Shown here: one piece after another, positions 3,246 to 23,048 of the stretch
Position numbering within the stretch: position 1 is the first letter of the stretch
How the letters are laid out: the number at the start of each line of letters is the position of its first letter
The notes under the pieces: model-generated
Databases searched by the model: none
Seen by the model: only the letters and a program-made list of their open reading frames with translations
Told to the model about the DNA's origin: nothing
Assembly (NCBI GenBank): GCA_016869175.1
Contig: VGEV01000021.1
Coordinates: 1 to 35,353 of the forward strand
Length of the DNA stretch: 35,353 nt
From: Alphaproteobacteria bacterium
GTDB taxonomy: Bacteria; Pseudomonadota; Alphaproteobacteria; GCA-2731375
Reading direction: 5' to 3'
Translations under genes and position numbers: made by a program

Positions 3246-3968
3246 TCAGGTATTGAACACGATCTGCACGCGGTCGCCGGCGAAACGCGCGATGCCATAG
3301 TCGATCGGCTGGCCGGCGGTGTCGACATTGACGCTCTCGGTCACCAGGACCGGCCGATTGACCGGTTGGCGCAGCCGCTCGGCTTCGTCGGGTTCCGGCA
3401 GCCGGGCGGTGACGCGGGTGGTCTTGCGGGCGTAGTCGGCGACGCCGAATCGGCGTAGCGCGTTGCTGATCGAGCCGCTGGCGGCATAGGCGGCATCGAT
3501 GCCGCGAAACCGTTCCGCGGGGAAATTGTGGCTGGCCAGGCTGATCGGCCGACCATCGGCTTCGCCCAGTGTTTCCAGCACCACGACCGTGGCTTGCCGC
3601 TTCAGCGCCAGTGCCTTGGCGATGGCGGCGCTCGGCCGTTCCTCGCGCACCGCCAGCAGCCGCCCACTCGGCAGCCGCTGCTGCGCCTGCACGATCTCGG
3701 AAAAGCGCGTGCGACGGCCGATCACGTAGTCCAGCATGTCCTCGTTGACGAAGGTGCCGCGGCCCTGCTCGATGCGAATGAGGCCGCGTTCGTTCAACGC
3801 CGCCAGCGCCTGGCGCAACGTGTGGCGGTTGACCTCGAAACGCTTGGCGAGCTCGGCTTCGGTCGGCAGCCGCATGTCGCCCGGGTAGTCGCCGGCGCCG
3901 ATCTCCGCGGCCAGCGTCGTCTCGATCTGCCGCCACAAGGCGATGCCACCGCCCCGCCGCAAGGCCAT
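3246..3968 (-). CDS. phnF: GntR/HutC-type phosphonate utilisation regulator PhnF
   Basis: wHTH LPTEAELAKRFEVNRHTLRQALAALNERGLIRIEQGRGTFV plus UTRA domain; divergent from phnG. Confidence 0.9.
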   Translation of the reverse strand: MALRRGGGIALWRQIETTLAAEIGAGDYPGDMRLPTEAELAKRFEVNRHTLRQALAALNERGLIRIEQGRGTFVNEDMLDYVIGRRTRFSEIVQAQQRLPSGRLLAVREERPSAAIAKALALKRQATVVVLETLGEADGRPISLASHNFPAERFRGIDAAYAASGSISNALRRFGVADYARKTTRVTARLPEPDEAERLRQPVNRPVLVTESVNVDTAGQPIDYGIARFAGDRVQIVFNT

Positions 3969-4052
3969 CCCTCTCTCCCAGGGCCGATGCCATCGGTTGG
4001 TAACAGCCGCGCGCTTTACTCGCACGCGGGCTTGCGGCATAGTCCGCGAGAT

Positions 4053-4072
4053 AGATCTAGATGTCTAGACCA
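4053..4072. promoter_or_regulatory. Candidate PhnF operator in the phnF-phnG intergenic region
   Basis: AGATCTAGATGTCTAGACCA; the segment ATGTCTAGACCA fits the HutC-subfamily GntR consensus NYGTMTAKACNY, with an adjacent second TCTAGA half. Confidence 0.6.
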
Positions 4073-4092
4073 ATAGCAAGGGGCGTGGCGGA

Positions 4093-4596
4093 ATGCCGAA
4101 CCGAAGCAAAGTGCCCACGCCGCCCGCCGCCGCGCCGGGGCCGGGGCGAGAGGCGGCCGGCGACGCGCGGCAGGAATGGCTTGGCGTACTGGCGCGGGCG
4201 CGCAACGCCGATCTGCAAATGCTCTGGCGCGATCTGCCGGACAAGCCAAGCTGGACGCGGCTGCGGGGACCCGAGAGTGGCCTGATCATGTTGCGCGGCC
4301 GGCTGGGCGGCGATGGGCGGCCGTTCAATCTGGGCGAGATGAGCGTGACGCGCTGCTCGGTAAGACTGGGCTGTGGCCGGGTAGGGCATGGCTATGTCGG
4401 GCGGCAGGACGCCTGGCAGGCGGAGGTCGCGGCGGTGCTCGACGGCTTGCTGCAGGAAGCGGCCAGTCACCAAGCGGCGGTTGCCGGCATCATCGGCCCC
4501 TTGCGGCGGATCGAGCAGGACCGGCGGGAGCGGGCGAGCCGGCAGGCCGCGGCGACCCGGGCCGAGTTCTTCACCGTGGCCCGCGGCGAGGCCTAG
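4093..4596 (+). CDS. phnG: C-P lyase subunit PhnG
   Basis: RQEWLGVLARARNADLQMLW...PESGLIMLRGRLGGDGRPFNLGEMSVTRCSVRL...GHGYVGRQDAWQAEVAAVLDGLLQ. Confidence 0.93.
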   Translation: MPNRSKVPTPPAAAPGPGREAAGDARQEWLGVLARARNADLQMLWRDLPDKPSWTRLRGPESGLIMLRGRLGGDGRPFNLGEMSVTRCSVRLGCGRVGHGYVGRQDAWQAEVAAVLDGLLQEAASHQAAVAGIIGPLRRIEQDRRERASRQAAATRAEFFTVARGEA

Positions 4597-4599
4597 GCG

Positions 4600-5196
4600 A
4601 TGGCCATGCCCGGCATCGCCGACGCGAAACTGGCGCCCGGCTTCGCCGACCCGGGGCGCGACAGCCAAAGGGTTTTCCGGGCGGCGCTCGCGGCCATGGC
4701 GGAGCCTGGGCGCATCGCGACGTTGGATTTGCGCCTGCAACCGACGCCACCCCTGGGCTTGGCGCAATCGGCGCTGGCGCTGACCTTGCTCGACTTCGAG
4801 GTCGCGCTATGGCTCGACGGGCCAGTCGCGCCGGCGGCCGACTATTTGCGGTTCCACACCGGCGTCCGTCTGGCCGCGCGGCCGGAGGACGCTGACTATT
4901 GCCTGATCGCCGGCCCGCTGCCGCCGCTGTCGAGCTTCAAGGCGGGCAGCGAGGAGGAGCCGGAGGCGGGGGCCACGCTGATCGTCGCCGTCGCGGGCTT
5001 GTTGGGCGATGGCCCCTGGCGGCTGAAGGGGCCGGGCTTGCCGCACGAAGGGCGCCTGGGGGTCGGCGGCTTGCCCGCCGACTTCGCCGCGCAGTGGGCG
5101 CAGAACCAACGCGCCTTCCCGCGGGGGATCGATCTCTTCCTCTGCGCCGGCAGCCGCCTGGTCGGCCTGCCGCGCACACTTACGATCGAGGGCTAG
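4600..5196 (+). CDS. phnH: C-P lyase subunit PhnH
   Basis: PGFADPGRDSQRVFRAALAAMAEPGRI...LALTLLDFEVALWL; position between phnG and phnI. Confidence 0.92.
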   Translation: MAMPGIADAKLAPGFADPGRDSQRVFRAALAAMAEPGRIATLDLRLQPTPPLGLAQSALALTLLDFEVALWLDGPVAPAADYLRFHTGVRLAARPEDADYCLIAGPLPPLSSFKAGSEEEPEAGATLIVAVAGLLGDGPWRLKGPGLPHEGRLGVGGLPADFAAQWAQNQRAFPRGIDLFLCAGSRLVGLPRTLTIEG

Positions 5197-5198
5197 GC

Positions 5199-6299
5199 AT
5201 GTATGTTCCGGTCAAGGGCGGCGAACAGGCGATCGACAACGCTGCCAGGCTGCTGGCCGAGAGCCGGCGGGGCGATCCGGCGGTTCCGGAACTGACGCTG
5301 GCGCAGATCGAGGGCCAACTCGCCCATGCCGTCGACCGGGTGATGGCGGAGGGTTCGCTTTATGACCGCAAGCTGGCGGCGCTCGCCATCAAGCAGGCGC
5401 GCGGCGACTTGGTGGAAGCGATCTTTCTGTTGCGCGCCTATCGGACCACTTTGCTGAGGTTTGGCGCGAGCGAGCCGCTGGACACCCGCCGCATGGCGAT
5501 CCGCCGGCGGATCTCCGCCACTTTCAAGGACCTGCCCGGAGGTCAGGTGCTGGGTGCCAGCTTCGACTACACCCATCGGCTGCTGGACTTCTCGTTGGCC
5601 GAGACCGGCGGTCCGTGCCCGGCAGCGGCCAAGGCAAGCCAGGCGCTGCCCTCCGACATGCCTTCCATCGCCGACATCCTTGAGCGGGAAGGCTTGATCG
5701 AGCGCGAGCCGGCCGAGAGCGGCGGCGCCGTGGCCGACCTGACGCGCGAGCCCCTGCGGTTTCCGGCCGCTCGGCCGGTGCGGTTGCAGGCGCTCGCCCG
5801 CGCCGACGAAGGGTTCCTGCTCGGGCTCGGCTATTCCACGCAGCGCGGCTACGGCAACAATCACCCGTTCGCCGGCGAAATCCGCCACGGCATGGTGACG
5901 GTCGAGTTCGTGCCCGAAGAACTGGGCTTTGCCGTCGCGCTCGGCGAAGTGGAGTTGACCGAATGCCAGATGGTCAACCAGTTCAAGGGCTCCGCCGCGC
6001 AGCCGCCGCACTTTACCCGCGGCTACGGGGTCGCATTCGGCCATGCCGAGCGCAAGGCGATGGCGATGGCGCTGGTCGATCGGTCCTTGCGCGCGGCCGA
6101 ACTGGGCGAGGAAGTGACGGCGCCGGCGCAAGACCCCGAATTCGTGCTCTACCACGGCGACAACGTCGAGGCCTCCGGCTTCGTGCAGCACCTGAAGCTG
6201 CCGCACTATGTCGACTTCCAGGCCGAATTGGTGACGGTCAGGGACTTGCGTCGGGAATTCAACGAACGCGCCGCCGGCCGGCGGGAGGCGGCAGAATGA
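5199..6299 (+). CDS. phnI: C-P lyase subunit PhnI
   Basis: MYVPVKGGEQAIDNAARLLAESRRGD...GYSTQRGYGNNHPFAGEIRHGMVTVEFVPEELGF. Confidence 0.96.
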   Translation: MYVPVKGGEQAIDNAARLLAESRRGDPAVPELTLAQIEGQLAHAVDRVMAEGSLYDRKLAALAIKQARGDLVEAIFLLRAYRTTLLRFGASEPLDTRRMAIRRRISATFKDLPGGQVLGASFDYTHRLLDFSLAETGGPCPAAAKASQALPSDMPSIADILEREGLIEREPAESGGAVADLTREPLRFPAARPVRLQALARADEGFLLGLGYSTQRGYGNNHPFAGEIRHGMVTVEFVPEELGFAVALGEVELTECQMVNQFKGSAAQPPHFTRGYGVAFGHAERKAMAMALVDRSLRAAELGEEVTAPAQDPEFVLYHGDNVEASGFVQHLKLPHYVDFQAELVTVRDLRREFNERAAGRREAAE

Positions 6300-7183
6300 A
6301 GCCGTCCAGCCCGGCCATGGCGGGCGAGCCGTCGGCCAACTACAACTTCGCCTTCCTCGACGAGCAGACCAAGCGGATGATCCGCCGGGGGCTGCTCAAG
6401 GCGGTCGCCATCCCGGGCCACCAGATCCCGTTCGGCAGCCGCGAGATGCCGCTGCCCTATGGCTGGGGCACCGGCGGCATCCAGATCACCGCCAGCATCG
6501 TCGGTCCTGACGACGTGCTGAAGGTGATCGATCAGGGGGCCGACGACACCACCAACGCCATCAACATCCGCCGTTTCTTCGCGCGCACGGCAGGGATCGC
6601 CACCACCGAGCGCACGGACCGGGCCAGCATCGTGCAAACCCGTCACCGGGTGCCCGAAAAGCCGTTGCGGGCGGGCCAAATCCTGGTGTTCCAGGTGCCG
6701 ACCCCCGAGCCGCTGCGCTGGCTGGAGCGGCGCGAGGCGGAGACGCGCAAGATGCATGCGCTGGCGGAATACGGCGCCATGCATGTCAACCTCTACGAGG
6801 ACATCGCCCGGTTCGGCCGCATCGCCAAGTCGTACGACTATCCGGTCCTGGTCAACGGCCGCTACATCATGAGCCCGAGCCCGATACCGAAATTCGACAA
6901 TCCGAAGCTGCACATGAGTCCGGCCTTGCAGCTCTACGGCGCCGGCCGCGAGAAGCGGCTCTACGCCGTGCCGCCCTACACGGAAGTCAAGAGCCTGGAC
7001 TTCGAGGACCATCCGTTCCGCATCGAACGCTGGACCGAGGCTTGTGCCCTGTGCGGCGCCGGCGACAGCTTCCTTGACGAGGTGGTGATGGACGATGCCG
7101 GGGGGCGGATGCTAGTCTGCTCGGACAGCGAGTATTGCGCCGAGCGGCGGGCGGCCGGCCATCGCGGCAAGGCGGCACCGTGA
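6296..7183 (+). CDS. phnJ: Alpha-D-ribose 1-methylphosphonate 5-phosphate C-P lyase PhnJ (radical SAM)
   Basis: Conserved PhnJ sequence; C-terminal CALC-x21-C-SDSEY-C equals the CX2CX21CX5C pattern of PhnJ. ATGA overlap with phnI. Confidence 0.97.
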   Translation: MKPSSPAMAGEPSANYNFAFLDEQTKRMIRRGLLKAVAIPGHQIPFGSREMPLPYGWGTGGIQITASIVGPDDVLKVIDQGADDTTNAINIRRFFARTAGIATTERTDRASIVQTRHRVPEKPLRAGQILVFQVPTPEPLRWLERREAETRKMHALAEYGAMHVNLYEDIARFGRIAKSYDYPVLVNGRYIMSPSPIPKFDNPKLHMSPALQLYGAGREKRLYAVPPYTEVKSLDFEDHPFRIERWTEACALCGAGDSFLDEVVMDDAGGRMLVCSDSEYCAERRAAGHRGKAAP

Positions 7184-7956
7184 GCCGGGTGCCGCTGCTC
7201 TGCGCGGAGGGCGTCGCCAAGTCGTTCGGTGCCCGGGTTGCCTGCCGCGATGTCGGCTTCGAACTGCATGCCGGCGAGATCCTGGGCGTGGTGGGCGAGT
7301 CAGGTTCGGGCAAGACCACGCTGCTGCGCTGCCTCGCCGGACAACTCACGCCCGATGCCGGTCGGGTCGCCTATGCCGACCGGTCCGGCGCGCTGCGGGA
7401 CGTGTTTGCCATGAGCGAAGCCGAACGGCGACGCCTGGCACGCACCGAATGGGGCTTTGTGCACCAGAATCCGCGCGACGGCCTGCGCATGGGCATCTCC
7501 GCCGGCGCCAATGTCGGCGAGCGGCTGATGGCGGTCGGCTGGCGCCATTACGGCGCCATCCGCGCCAGCGCGCTGGCCTGGCTCGCCAATGTCGAGATCG
7601 CCGCCGACCGGATCGACGACCTGCCGGCCGGATTCTCCGGCGGCATGCAGCAGCGCTTGCAGATTGCCCGCAACCTGGTGTCCGAACCGCGTCTCGTCTA
7701 CATGGACGAGCCGACCGGCGGCCTCGACGTCTCGGTGCAGGCGCGCCTCCTCGACCTGCTGCGCCGGTTGGTGCAGCGACTGCAGCTGGCTTCGGTCGTT
7801 GTCACCCACGACCTCGGTGTGGTGCGCATGCTCTGCGACCGCCTGATGGTGATGCAGGCGGGCGAAGTGGTCGAAGAAGGCCTGACCGACCAGGTGCTGG
7901 ACGACCCGCAGCACGCCTATACCCAGCTTCTCGTCTCCTCGATCCTGCCGGCCTAG
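7180..7956 (+). CDS. phnK: Phosphonate C-P lyase system ATP-binding protein PhnK
   Basis: Walker A GESGSGKT, signature FSGGMQQRLQIARNLVSEPRLVYMDEPTGGLDVSVQARLLDLLR; GTGA overlap with phnJ. Confidence 0.94.
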   Translation: MSRVPLLCAEGVAKSFGARVACRDVGFELHAGEILGVVGESGSGKTTLLRCLAGQLTPDAGRVAYADRSGALRDVFAMSEAERRRLARTEWGFVHQNPRDGLRMGISAGANVGERLMAVGWRHYGAIRASALAWLANVEIAADRIDDLPAGFSGGMQQRLQIARNLVSEPRLVYMDEPTGGLDVSVQARLLDLLRRLVQRLQLASVVVTHDLGVVRMLCDRLMVMQAGEVVEEGLTDQVLDDPQHAYTQLLVSSILPA

Positions 7957-7960
7957 GACA

Positions 7961-8671
7961 ATGGCGCGAACCGCGGAACCCATGCTGACGGCGCAGGCTC
8001 TGCGCAAGTCCTTCACGCTGCACCTGCGCGGGGGCGTGACCCTGCCGGTGCTGGAGGGCAACGACCTGACGGTCGCCGCCGGCGAGTGCGTCGGGCTGCT
8101 CGGCCCCTCGGGCGTCGGTAAGTCGACCTTGCTGCGCTGTCTTTATGGCAATTACCGGCCGCAAGCCGGCCGCATCCGTGTCAGGCATGACGGGGCGATG
8201 GTCGATCTGGTCGGCGCGCCGCCATATCTTCTGCTGGCGGTCCGCCGACGCACGATCGGTTATGTCAGCCAGTTCCTGCGCGTCATCCCGCGCATCGGCG
8301 CGCTCGACCTGGTCATCGAACGGGCGCTGGCCTTCACCCCGAGCGAGGAGGAAGCACGCATCCGCGCCATGACGATGCTGACCGCATTGAACCTGCCGGC
8401 CCGGCTGTGGGCGCTGCCGCCGGCGACCTTTTCCGGCGGCGAGCAGCAGCGCGTGAACCTGGCGCGCGTCCTGGTCGGCGACTATCCGATCCTGTTGTTG
8501 GACGAACCGACCGCCGCTCTCGACCAGCAGAACCGCGATGCCGCAATCGAGCTCATAGGCCAGCGGGTGCGATCGGGCGCCGCCGCGGTCGGCATTTTTC
8601 ACGATGCCGATGCGCGTCGCCGGCTGACCGACCGTGGCGTCGAACTTGTGCCGGCACGGGAGACCGCATGA
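7961..8671 (+). CDS. phnL: Phosphonate C-P lyase system ATP-binding protein PhnL
   Basis: GPSGVGKSTLLRCLYGNYRP...FSGGEQQRVNLARVLVGDYPILLLDEPTAALDQQNRDAAIELI. Confidence 0.94.
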   Translation: MARTAEPMLTAQALRKSFTLHLRGGVTLPVLEGNDLTVAAGECVGLLGPSGVGKSTLLRCLYGNYRPQAGRIRVRHDGAMVDLVGAPPYLLLAVRRRTIGYVSQFLRVIPRIGALDLVIERALAFTPSEEEARIRAMTMLTALNLPARLWALPPATFSGGEQQRVNLARVLVGDYPILLLDEPTAALDQQNRDAAIELIGQRVRSGAAAVGIFHDADARRRLTDRGVELVPARETA

Positions 8672-9813
8672 AGACGGCGCTGCGGCTGGGCAACGCCCAA
8701 CTGGTGCTGCCGGACGGCGTGCGCCGGGGAGCCGTCGTTTGCGGGGAAGGCGCAATCGCGGCGATCGACGAGGGGGCGGGAAGCGCGGCGCAGGCGCTCG
8801 ATCTCGAGGGCGACTATCTGCTGCCCGGTTTCGTCGAGCTGCATACCGACGACCTGGAGCGCCACGTCACACCGCGGCCGGCGGTGCGCTGGCCGACCCT
8901 GCCGGCACTGCTGGTGCATGACGCGGAGGTCGCGGCGGCGGGGATCACCACGGTCTGCGATGCCTTGCGCGCGGGCATCATGTCGTCCGAGACGTGGAGT
9001 CGGCTGGACATGTTGCACGACACCGTCGCCGGCATCGCCCGCTGCCAGGATGGCGGCCTGCTGCGGTCGGAGCATCTGCTGCACATGCGCTGCGAGGTGG
9101 CGAGCGACAACGTGATGGAGATGTTCCAGCCGTTTCTTGGCAACCGCCTGTTGCGCCTGGTTTCGGTCATGGATCACACCCCAGGCGCGCGGCAGTTCCG
9201 CAATGTCGACTATTGGAAGGTCTACTATCGTGGTCGCTACCAGTTCTCGGAGGCCGAGATCGATCGGATGATCGCCGAACGGCTGGACCTGCAAGGCCGC
9301 AATTCCGAACGCCATCGCCAGGCCATCGCCGGCGCCTGCAAGGGTTGCGATGTGGTGTTGGCTAGCCATGACGATACTCTGGCCGAGCATATCGACGAGG
9401 CGCGCGCGCTGGGGCTGACGATTTCCGAATTCCCGACCACCTTGGAAGCCGCCGAGGCCGCGCATGCCCAAGGCATGACGACCGTCGGCGGCGCGCCCAA
9501 CATGGTGCGTGGCGGTTCGCATTCCGGCAACGTCGCGGCGATGGACCTGGCGCGGGCCGGATTGCTCGACGCGCTGTCCTCGGACTACGTGCCGGCCAGC
9601 CTGCTGCACGCGGCATTCCTGATGCACCGGCAAGTCGGCTTGCCGTTGCAGCAGGCAGTGGCGACCATTTCGGTCAATCCAGCCCGCATGTTGGGCTTGG
9701 CCGATCGGGGCGAGATCGCGGTCGGCCAACGCGCCGACCTGGTGCGGGTGGCGCTGTGCGATGGGCTGCCGGTGGTGCGCCAAGTCTGGCGCTCCGGCCG
9801 GCGCGTGGTTTGA
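8668..9813 (+). CDS. phnM: Alpha-D-ribose 1-methylphosphonate 5-triphosphate diphosphatase PhnM
   Basis: Amidohydrolase fold: LLPGFVELHTDDLERHVTPRPAVRWP...VLASHDDT...GAPNMVRGGSHSGNVAAMDLA...SSDYVPASLL. ATGA overlap with phnL. Confidence 0.95.
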   Translation: MKTALRLGNAQLVLPDGVRRGAVVCGEGAIAAIDEGAGSAAQALDLEGDYLLPGFVELHTDDLERHVTPRPAVRWPTLPALLVHDAEVAAAGITTVCDALRAGIMSSETWSRLDMLHDTVAGIARCQDGGLLRSEHLLHMRCEVASDNVMEMFQPFLGNRLLRLVSVMDHTPGARQFRNVDYWKVYYRGRYQFSEAEIDRMIAERLDLQGRNSERHRQAIAGACKGCDVVLASHDDTLAEHIDEARALGLTISEFPTTLEAAEAAHAQGMTTVGGAPNMVRGGSHSGNVAAMDLARAGLLDALSSDYVPASLLHAAFLMHRQVGLPLQQAVATISVNPARMLGLADRGEIAVGQRADLVRVALCDGLPVVRQVWRSGRRVV

Positions 9814-9824
9814 CGGAGGGCAGG

Positions 9825-10376
9825 ATGTCGGCGGTCGATGCGATCATCCAGATCATGGCGCGGGGTGGCGCGCGCGACTATGGCGGCGAGCGGATCAGCC
9901 AGCTGGCGCACGGCCTGCAATGCGCGCAGTTGGCCGAGCGGCAGGGAGCGACGCCAAGCCTGATCGTCGCGGCCCTGCTGCACGACATCGGTCACCTGCT
10001 CAACGCCGACGAATGGGCGGCCTTTCAGCGCGGCGAGGATGCGCGGCACGAGGAGCGCGGCGCCGATTTCCTGGCGCGGCATTTCGGTCCGGAGGTGAGC
10101 GAGCCGGTCCGGCTGCATGTCGCCGCCAAGCGCTACCTGACCGCCGTCGAGCCCGGCTATCACGACGGCCTGTCGCCGGTTTCCGGACGCACGCTGCAAC
10201 TGCAAGGCGGCCCCTTCAGCCCGGCCGAGGCGGCAGCCTTCGCCGGCGCCGCGCACGCGCAGGCGGCGATCGCGGTCCGCCGCTGGGATGAGCAGGGCAA
10301 GGATCCGGCCGCACCGACGCCAGACCTGCGGCATTTCGCGCCGTATCTGCTGACCGCTCTGGCCCGACCGGTTTGA
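9825..10376 (+). CDS. Phosphonate-degradation-associated HD-domain protein, PhnZ-type diiron oxygenase candidate
   Basis: DYGGERISQLAH...LLHDIGHL...ARHEERGADFL...VRLHVAAKRYL...RRWDEQGK; the Y-x2-E-x6-H plus HD/H/H/D ligand pattern resembles PhnZ. Confidence 0.85.
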   Translation: MSAVDAIIQIMARGGARDYGGERISQLAHGLQCAQLAERQGATPSLIVAALLHDIGHLLNADEWAAFQRGEDARHEERGADFLARHFGPEVSEPVRLHVAAKRYLTAVEPGYHDGLSPVSGRTLQLQGGPFSPAEAAAFAGAAHAQAAIAVRRWDEQGKDPAAPTPDLRHFAPYLLTALARPV

Positions 10377-11065
10377 GCAGACGGATCGCGCTCTATTTCG
10401 CGCCGGCATCAGGTTCGGCGTTGGCCGAGTTCGGCGCGCGGTGGCTTGGCCGCGATGCGCTCGAGGACCGGGCGCTGGCGCAACCGCGGCTGGTCGGCAT
10501 CGCGCCCGAGCGACTGACGGCCATCACCGCTTCGCCCCGCCACTACGGCTTTCACGCGACCTTGAAGCCGCCCTTCGCGCTGTCGGCCGGACAGTCCGCG
10601 CAAGCGGTGCATCGTGCGGCCGCGGCGTTCGCCCGTCGGCAGCCGGCATTCGCGCTGCCGGCCTTGCGGCTGGTATCGCTGGGCGGCTTCCTGGCACTGG
10701 TGCCGGCCGCGCCCTCGCGCCAACTGCGCCTGCTGGCGGATGCCTGCGTCGTCGAATTCGATGGCTTTCGTGCCCGGCCCGGCGCCGCCGAACTGACCAG
10801 ACGACGGGCCAGCGGCCTGTCCCAGAGACAGGATGCCCTGCTCGCGCGCTGGGGCTATCCCTTCGTCTTGGAGGAATATCGCTTTCACCTGACTCTGACC
10901 GAGCGGCTTGCGGAACCGGAACGCACGCAGGTGCTGCACGCCCTGGCGCCGCTCTGCGAGCCGTTCTGCCAGTCGCCCCTCGGCATCGACGCGCTGACCC
11001 TGTTCGAGCAGACCGAGCGCGCCCGCGACTTCGTGATCAGCGCCCGCTATCCGTTCGCCGGCTGA
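10373..11065 (+). CDS. DUF1045 phosphonate metabolism protein, 2H-phosphoesterase-like
   Basis: Two HxTL motifs: HYGFHATLKPPF and YRFHLTLTERL. TTG start overlaps the HD gene stop. Confidence 0.87.
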   Translation: MSRRIALYFAPASGSALAEFGARWLGRDALEDRALAQPRLVGIAPERLTAITASPRHYGFHATLKPPFALSAGQSAQAVHRAAAAFARRQPAFALPALRLVSLGGFLALVPAAPSRQLRLLADACVVEFDGFRARPGAAELTRRRASGLSQRQDALLARWGYPFVLEEYRFHLTLTERLAEPERTQVLHALAPLCEPFCQSPLGIDALTLFEQTERARDFVISARYPFAG

Positions 11066-12335: not shown

Positions 12336-14423
<2,088 letters not shown>

Positions 14424-19203: not shown

Positions 19204-21293
<2,090 letters not shown>

Positions 21294-21297
<4 letters not shown>

Positions 21298-21649: not shown

Positions 21650-22716
21650 ATGACGATCCGCATGCGGCGCACCCTGCGGGGTGGGCTGGGCGCGTCCGCC
21701 TCGTGCCTGCTCGCCTGCGCCACTCTGGCCGATCCCGCCGTGGCGATGCCGATGAGCCATGTGGTCATTCAGGACACCATCCTGGTGCATGGCTACAAGG
21801 GCGGTGCCAATGCCAACAACCCGGCGACCACGGGGCCCTATAGCTAATTCGTCGATGTGATCGGCGATCGCAAGATCTGGGATACCCAGCGCGTTGAAGT
21901 CACCCGCACGCCGGACCTGGTGAAGATCGAGATCTTCACCAACAAGCATAAGAACGACGAGGGCGGCGTGCCGTTTGCCGACTTGGCGTTCGACCTGTCG
22001 CCGGACGACGCGATCGATGGCCCGTTCAATATCTGGCACCTGGGGATCGATTTCCAATACAACGCCGGCGATCCGGCCGACGTCGTCACCAAGGTCTCCG
22101 GCAAGGAGGTGAGCCGGGTCGGTCAGCGTCGACTCTATGGCCTGAATGCCAACACGCTCTGGCAGACCTCCTACGAAACCTACGGCCAGTTCCAGGGGAC
22201 CGGAACGATTTATGGCGGGCGTTTCCGGGCCGCGGATTGCGGCGCGCCCAACGCCGGCGACGGCGACCCGGCGGCCTGCAACGACGCAACCCCGGTGGCC
22301 GAGGATGAGAAGGGTTTCGAGCCGCCGGTCAACATCCCGCTCGGCGTGGCCGGCGTGACCCATCTCGGCAATGTCAGCTTCCGCATCGATCAGATCGAGG
22401 TCCCGGGTCTCACCAGCCCCTATCTCGACGACAACAACGTCGACACGCCGTCGACCAAGATCACGCTCGAACTGAGCGGCTTGGCGTTCGGCAAGTCCGG
22501 CCTGGGCCTGGATCCATTCGATCTCTACTGGGGCACCGGCCAGTGTTCGAACGACGGCATCTGGGGCAACGTTCCGGGCATTTCGGAGCCGGCGACGCTG
22601 GCGCTGTTCGGCCTCGGCCTGACCATTCTGGGTTTTTTCGTCGCCGTCCGCGCCGACACGATTCGGCCTCGGCGAGGCGGGCGGGGTGCTGTCCCGCCGG
22701 CTGGCCCCCGGGTTAG
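21650..22716 (+). pseudogene. PEP-CTERM sorting-domain protein interrupted by in-frame TAA (21845-21847) and an apparent frame change at a T6 tract (22633-22638)
   Basis: Signal peptide MTIRMRRTLRGGLGASASCLLACATLADPAVAM; same frame continues after TAA as FVDVIGDRKIWDTQRVEVTR...; C-terminus GISEPATLALFGLGLTILGFF, then RRRPRR only in the -1 frame (stop TAG at 22714). Confidence 0.75.
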
Positions 22717-23048
22717 GGCGACAGTTCGAAATAGCCGCGCTTCAAGGCATGGCGCAAGGCGCCGAAGCCGAGCAAGGCTTCCTCATACGCCTCGCGTCGG
22801 CGCTTCAGCTCGTTGGCGCTTTCGTCGGCGCAACGGTTGCCATCGGCGAGGCATAGCACGGCGTTGAGATAGTCGGCCCGCAGCCGCGCAACCGCGATCG
22901 CTGCCTTGAGGAAATGCTCCTTGCCGATGCCACCGGTCACGCGGCTGATACAGCTCGTGTTGGCCTCGCGGATCGCCTGTTCGAACTCGTGAAAGACGCG
23001 CTCCCGTTTCAGCTCCTCGGTGAAACTGTCGTGCTCATGGATGCTCAC
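22713..23048 (-). CDS. Hypothetical protein, 111 aa
   Basis: Complete ORF with plausible start, MSIHEHDSFTEELKRERVFHEFEQAIREANTSCISRVTGGIGKEHFLKAAIAVARLRADYLNAVLCLADGN; no family recognised. Confidence 0.6.
   Translation of the reverse strand: MSIHEHDSFTEELKRERVFHEFEQAIREANTSCISRVTGGIGKEHFLKAAIAVARLRADYLNAVLCLADGNRCADESANELKRRREAYEEALLGFGALRHALKRGYFELSP

Follow-up and report, generated by a model that had tools for sequence, protein, structure and literature searches.

A probable decayed duplicate of a PEP-CTERM protein gene

The gene that starts at position 21650 of the window (the whole 35,353-nucleotide stretch of DNA that was analysed) is probably a pseudogene, namely a recently inactivated duplicate of a gene for a lineage-restricted surface protein of the PEP-CTERM type. 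This reading is favoured because two independent lesions of different kind, a premature TAA and a frame break, are present in one gene, and because an intact paralogue, relative to which both lesions are evident, is located elsewhere in the same genome.

The frame-0 part of the gene (21650..22639, plus strand) was delimited by translation, by alignment with the paralogue and by third-position GC, which is 0.79-0.88 throughout. It encodes a signal-peptide-like N-terminus, a unique body and SEPATLALFGLGLTILGFF. A GGGGGA Shine-Dalgarno-like stretch precedes the ATG at 21650; a sigma-70 promoter scan found none. As far as the frame break, the composition by codon position is still that of a gene; this is a point against decay, and it indicates that either the decay is recent or one of the lesions is a sequence error. 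The first lesion is an in-frame TAA at codon 66 (21845..21847, plus strand). It was identified in the translation and in the paralogue alignment, where the corresponding column is AAC (Asn), and a genome search also counted one TAA within this match. The second lesion is located at the heptamer T TTT TTC (22633..22639, plus strand). Here, at the run of six Ts, past the membrane segment but still ahead of the basic cluster, frame 0 leaves the ancestral frame; the position of the break is bounded by the paralogue alignment, in which the last frame-0 match is LG, followed by RRRPR in the -1 frame.

After the T run the -1 frame begins RRRPRR... and encodes the tail RRRPRRHDSASARRAGCCPAGWPPG (22639..22716, plus strand), which ends at a TAG (22714-22716). 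This assignment is based on the translation, on the Pfam PEP-CTERM score (see below) and on the match to QRRRPRQ of the paralogue. The frame-0 run-on past the break (22640..22867, plus strand) extends to a TGA (22865-22867) and is antisense to a convergent ORF; its codon-position GC (0.75/0.79/0.54) is not gene-like. The coordinates that the first-pass annotation had given for the heptamer, the end of the zero frame and the -1 frame stop were all confirmed. The convergent ORF (22713..23048, minus strand, 111 aa) matched no known family and showed no relative in 14 other genomes of its family; its terminal TAA shares bases with the TAG of the -1 frame (TTAG, 22713-22716).

The intact paralogue is located on contig C115 (10552-11472, minus strand; locus L002). 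It consists of a single frame, and 151 of the 297 residues aligned with the gene at 21650 (51%) are identical. It ends SEPATLALFAGALFGLGWQRRRPRQACA-stop, with the tail QRRRPRQACA-stop in one frame. No T6 run was found near this paralogue; the heptamer is absent and no shift is needed. Since the intact single-frame paralogue ends in this way, the -1 frame is taken as ancestral after about position 22639.

Other homologues were sought in 96 relatives, 385 genomes of the class and 399 genomes of the phylum (about 880 genomes), plus a species-wide contig collection. No full-length homologue besides the paralogue was found in any of them, the class and phylum matches covering the C-terminal region only, and a plasmid collection was without a match to the PEP-CTERM gene. 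One candidate, L003 of genome G001, was rejected as a homologue; it is another PEP-CTERM protein, aligning over the C-terminal third only (E 9.8e-4). The dN (0.46) and dS (0.92) values against the paralogue inform on past constraint only, with no assignable polarity. That these values cannot be polarised, and that no orthologue was found to date the lesions, may be counted against decay. At the end of contig C115 (L002, 2948-3422), near the intact paralogue, an open frame that by eye resembles an IS5-type transposase was observed, reaching the contig end.

Decay of the gene could have proceeded through a point mutation giving rise to the TAA and through a single-base deletion within or next to the T run, which would produce the frame break. 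A ribosome starting at 21650 would then synthesize about 65 residues, re-initiation at the GTG at 21857 would yield a protein without the signal peptide, and the exported, tag-bearing protein would no longer be made. The loss of a single T was one of the options raised in the first-pass annotation, where the TAA was regarded as favouring decay. Comparison with the intact paralogue agrees with this option in revealing two lesions, of which the frame break would be the result of the single-base loss.

Two further lines of evidence argue for a pseudogene. In 1106 genomes, conserved frame transitions corresponded to 4010 pseudogene clusters versus 146 recoding clusters (Antonov et al. 2013, PMC3711429). 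In addition, PEP-CTERM proteins are among the fastest-evolving sets, with frequent duplication and loss (PMC1569441). Like the bacterial pseudogenes with frame transitions described by Antonov et al. (2013, PMC3711429), the locus carries both a frame break and a premature stop and has an intact paralogue at another place in the genome; no feature distinguishing it from ordinary bacterial pseudogenes was found. As a pseudogene, the locus illustrates the quick turnover of PEP-CTERM repertoires.

A rival reading is that one or both lesions arose during sequencing or assembly, the living cell having an intact single-frame gene. Homopolymer miscounts are a common type of error, the gene retains coding composition and the draft comprises 285 contigs. 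However, this explanation requires the same gene to have been hit by two separate errors of unlike kind, T6 is a short run, and the overlong tail described below would stay unexplained. Moreover, the completeness of the genome is rated at 100% and its contamination at 0.13%. Those genes of the window that have a family match and were checked proved intact; PhnG-PhnM, two FadJ-like genes, MeaB, CobT/CobS and a CoA-transferase are among those in a single frame. Since the family-matched genes around the locus are intact, poor sequence quality is not an obvious cause, and these intact genes together with the completeness rating make two errors in one gene unlikely. Hence, we consider an intact gene hidden by such errors unlikely, and one of the two lesions could be a sequence error.

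The C-terminal sorting tail

It had been proposed in the first-pass annotation that a -1 shift restores a canonical PEP-CTERM tail. The observation was confirmed, with qualifications. With the -1 tail, the score of the C-terminal segment against Pfam PEP-CTERM (PF07589; cut-off 20.7 bits) rose from 22.6 bits in frame 0 to 26.7 bits, TIGR02595 gave 24.6 bits (cut-off 16), and the alignment score of the tail to the paralogue increased from 48 in frame 0 to 73 in the -1 frame. The Arg cluster of the -1 tail matches that of the paralogue, and this match is beyond chance because, over 400 kb of this genome, stretches with at least five Arg in six codons occur at only 0.15% of positions. The term canonical, however, overstates the case. 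The tail motif is SEP instead of PEP (the same as in the paralogue), and past the basic cluster the -1 frame continues for about 22 residues (about 70 further residues in frame 0), so that even in the restored -1 tail the PEP-CTERM domain is not placed at the extreme C-terminus. Frame 0 scores above the Pfam cut-off by itself, so the tag is weakened in frame 0 and not absent. The openness of the -1 frame was rejected as evidence, since this frame is open from 22309 onward irrespective of the heptamer.

The locus resembles PEP-CTERM proteins (PF07589, TIGR02595) in its signal-peptide-like N-terminus, unique body, (P/S)EP-A-T motif, hydrophobic segment and, in the -1 frame, Arg cluster, and in having an intact paralogue in the genome. 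It differs from them in the premature TAA, in the frame break before the Arg cluster and in the approximately 22 trailing residues, against a median of 3 residues past the basic cluster (87% of these proteins have fewer than 10), and it has been suggested that PEP-CTERM proteins with much longer tails are possibly non-functional (Haft et al. 2006, PMC1569441). The overrun of the restored tail is therefore a further argument for a pseudogene.

The genome under study (G000) contains 13 PEP-CTERM matches at E<=0.001, and genome G001 of the same family contains 70. No exosortase was detected in G000 with PF09721 or TIGR02602 at E<=10 (TIGR04178 gave a chance-level 9.3 bits), nor in G001 with PF09721 or TIGR02602. 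Exosortases were found in the same-family genomes G004, G008 and G013, which indicates that the search works. It is possible that the draft of G000 misses the gene, that the sortase was lost or that it has diverged too far. Its loss would relax selection on the tags, yet the other tags that were read are intact.

The T6 heptamer and the proposed programmed frameshifting

The presence of a T6 slippery heptamer at the frame break was confirmed, and relative to the ATG at 21650 it reads GG[T TTT TTC], i.e. in X XXY YYZ phase. This is a heptamer of the right type in the right phase for programmed -1 ribosomal frameshifting, which would control completion of the sorting tag, and the predicted product matches the tail of the paralogue. 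It is also the sole in-phase T TTT TTC among the 333 genes predicted in 435 kb sampled from the genome. This uniqueness carries little weight, because it concerns a single site among 333 genes, in a genome rich in GC, and the site was chosen since it had already been noticed. Within the window, counting both strands, T TTT TTC occurs twice versus 0.84 times expected and is not enriched.

Programmed frameshifting is very improbable on several grounds. The TAA at codon 66 halts frame 0 about 790 bases before the slip site, and since it lies upstream and in frame, a shift at the heptamer cannot rescue the gene. Recoding of this TAA as a sense codon was rejected; the genes here use normal stops, and a TAA ends the convergent ORF. 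Spacers between a slip site and its stimulator are typically 5-9 nt (PMC5009743), whereas the predicted helices start 1 nt and about 36 nt past the heptamer, the second being the hairpin that the first-pass annotation had placed ~30-40 nt downstream and beyond the usual spacing. No 3' stimulator 5-9 nt downstream and stabler than chance was found when pseudoknot-free folds were compared with shuffled sequences, the folding of the downstream RNA being at the level of the shuffles (z 0.10 and -0.63). By eye, no purine-rich Shine-Dalgarno-like stimulator was seen upstream of the heptamer.

Conservation of the site was not observed either. The heptamer is absent from the paralogue, the sole homologue found; no orthologue showing a conserved site appeared in the searched genomes; and ten further PEP-CTERM tails that were read from this genome are each single-frame and lack a T6 run ahead of their basic cluster. 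Furthermore, no exosortase was found in the genome, so there is perhaps no sorting step to control. The locus shares the type and phase of its heptamer with programmed -1 cassettes of the X XXY YYZ kind, such as A AAA AAG of E. coli dnaX. Unlike these cassettes, it has a stop upstream in the same frame, and it lacks a Shine-Dalgarno stimulator (by eye), a well-spaced or unusually stable hairpin and conservation. Among the papers searched, none was found that combines PEP-CTERM with frameshift.

Consequently, we give very little credence to a PEP-CTERM substrate existing in sorted and unsorted forms, in which a -1 shift at T TTT TTC would be the sole means of completing the tag and the TAA would be read through or an artefact. 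If programmed, the locus would be a recoding switch acting on protein sorting; as a pseudogene, it illustrates that a textbook in-phase heptamer is weak evidence without conservation.

Polymerase slippage, the other option of the first-pass annotation, by which some mRNA would gain an extra base on T6 and hence the full tail, is extremely improbable, because although a homopolymer run is located at the frame break, T6 is short compared with the runs of 9 A or T at which efficient bacterial slippage is documented (PMC5009743), and the upstream TAA would persist regardless.

Other genes in the window

An apparently complete C-P lyase phosphonate cluster was observed at 3246-11065, with genes for PhnF, PhnG, PhnH, PhnI, PhnJ, PhnK and PhnM, a second ABC ATPase (at the PhnL position), an oxygenase with an HD domain and one more phosphonate protein. 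Two genes for multifunctional FadJ-like enoyl-CoA hydratase / 3-hydroxyacyl-CoA dehydrogenase proteins (12336-14423, minus strand, and 19204-21297, plus strand) are located 5 kb apart in opposite orientation.
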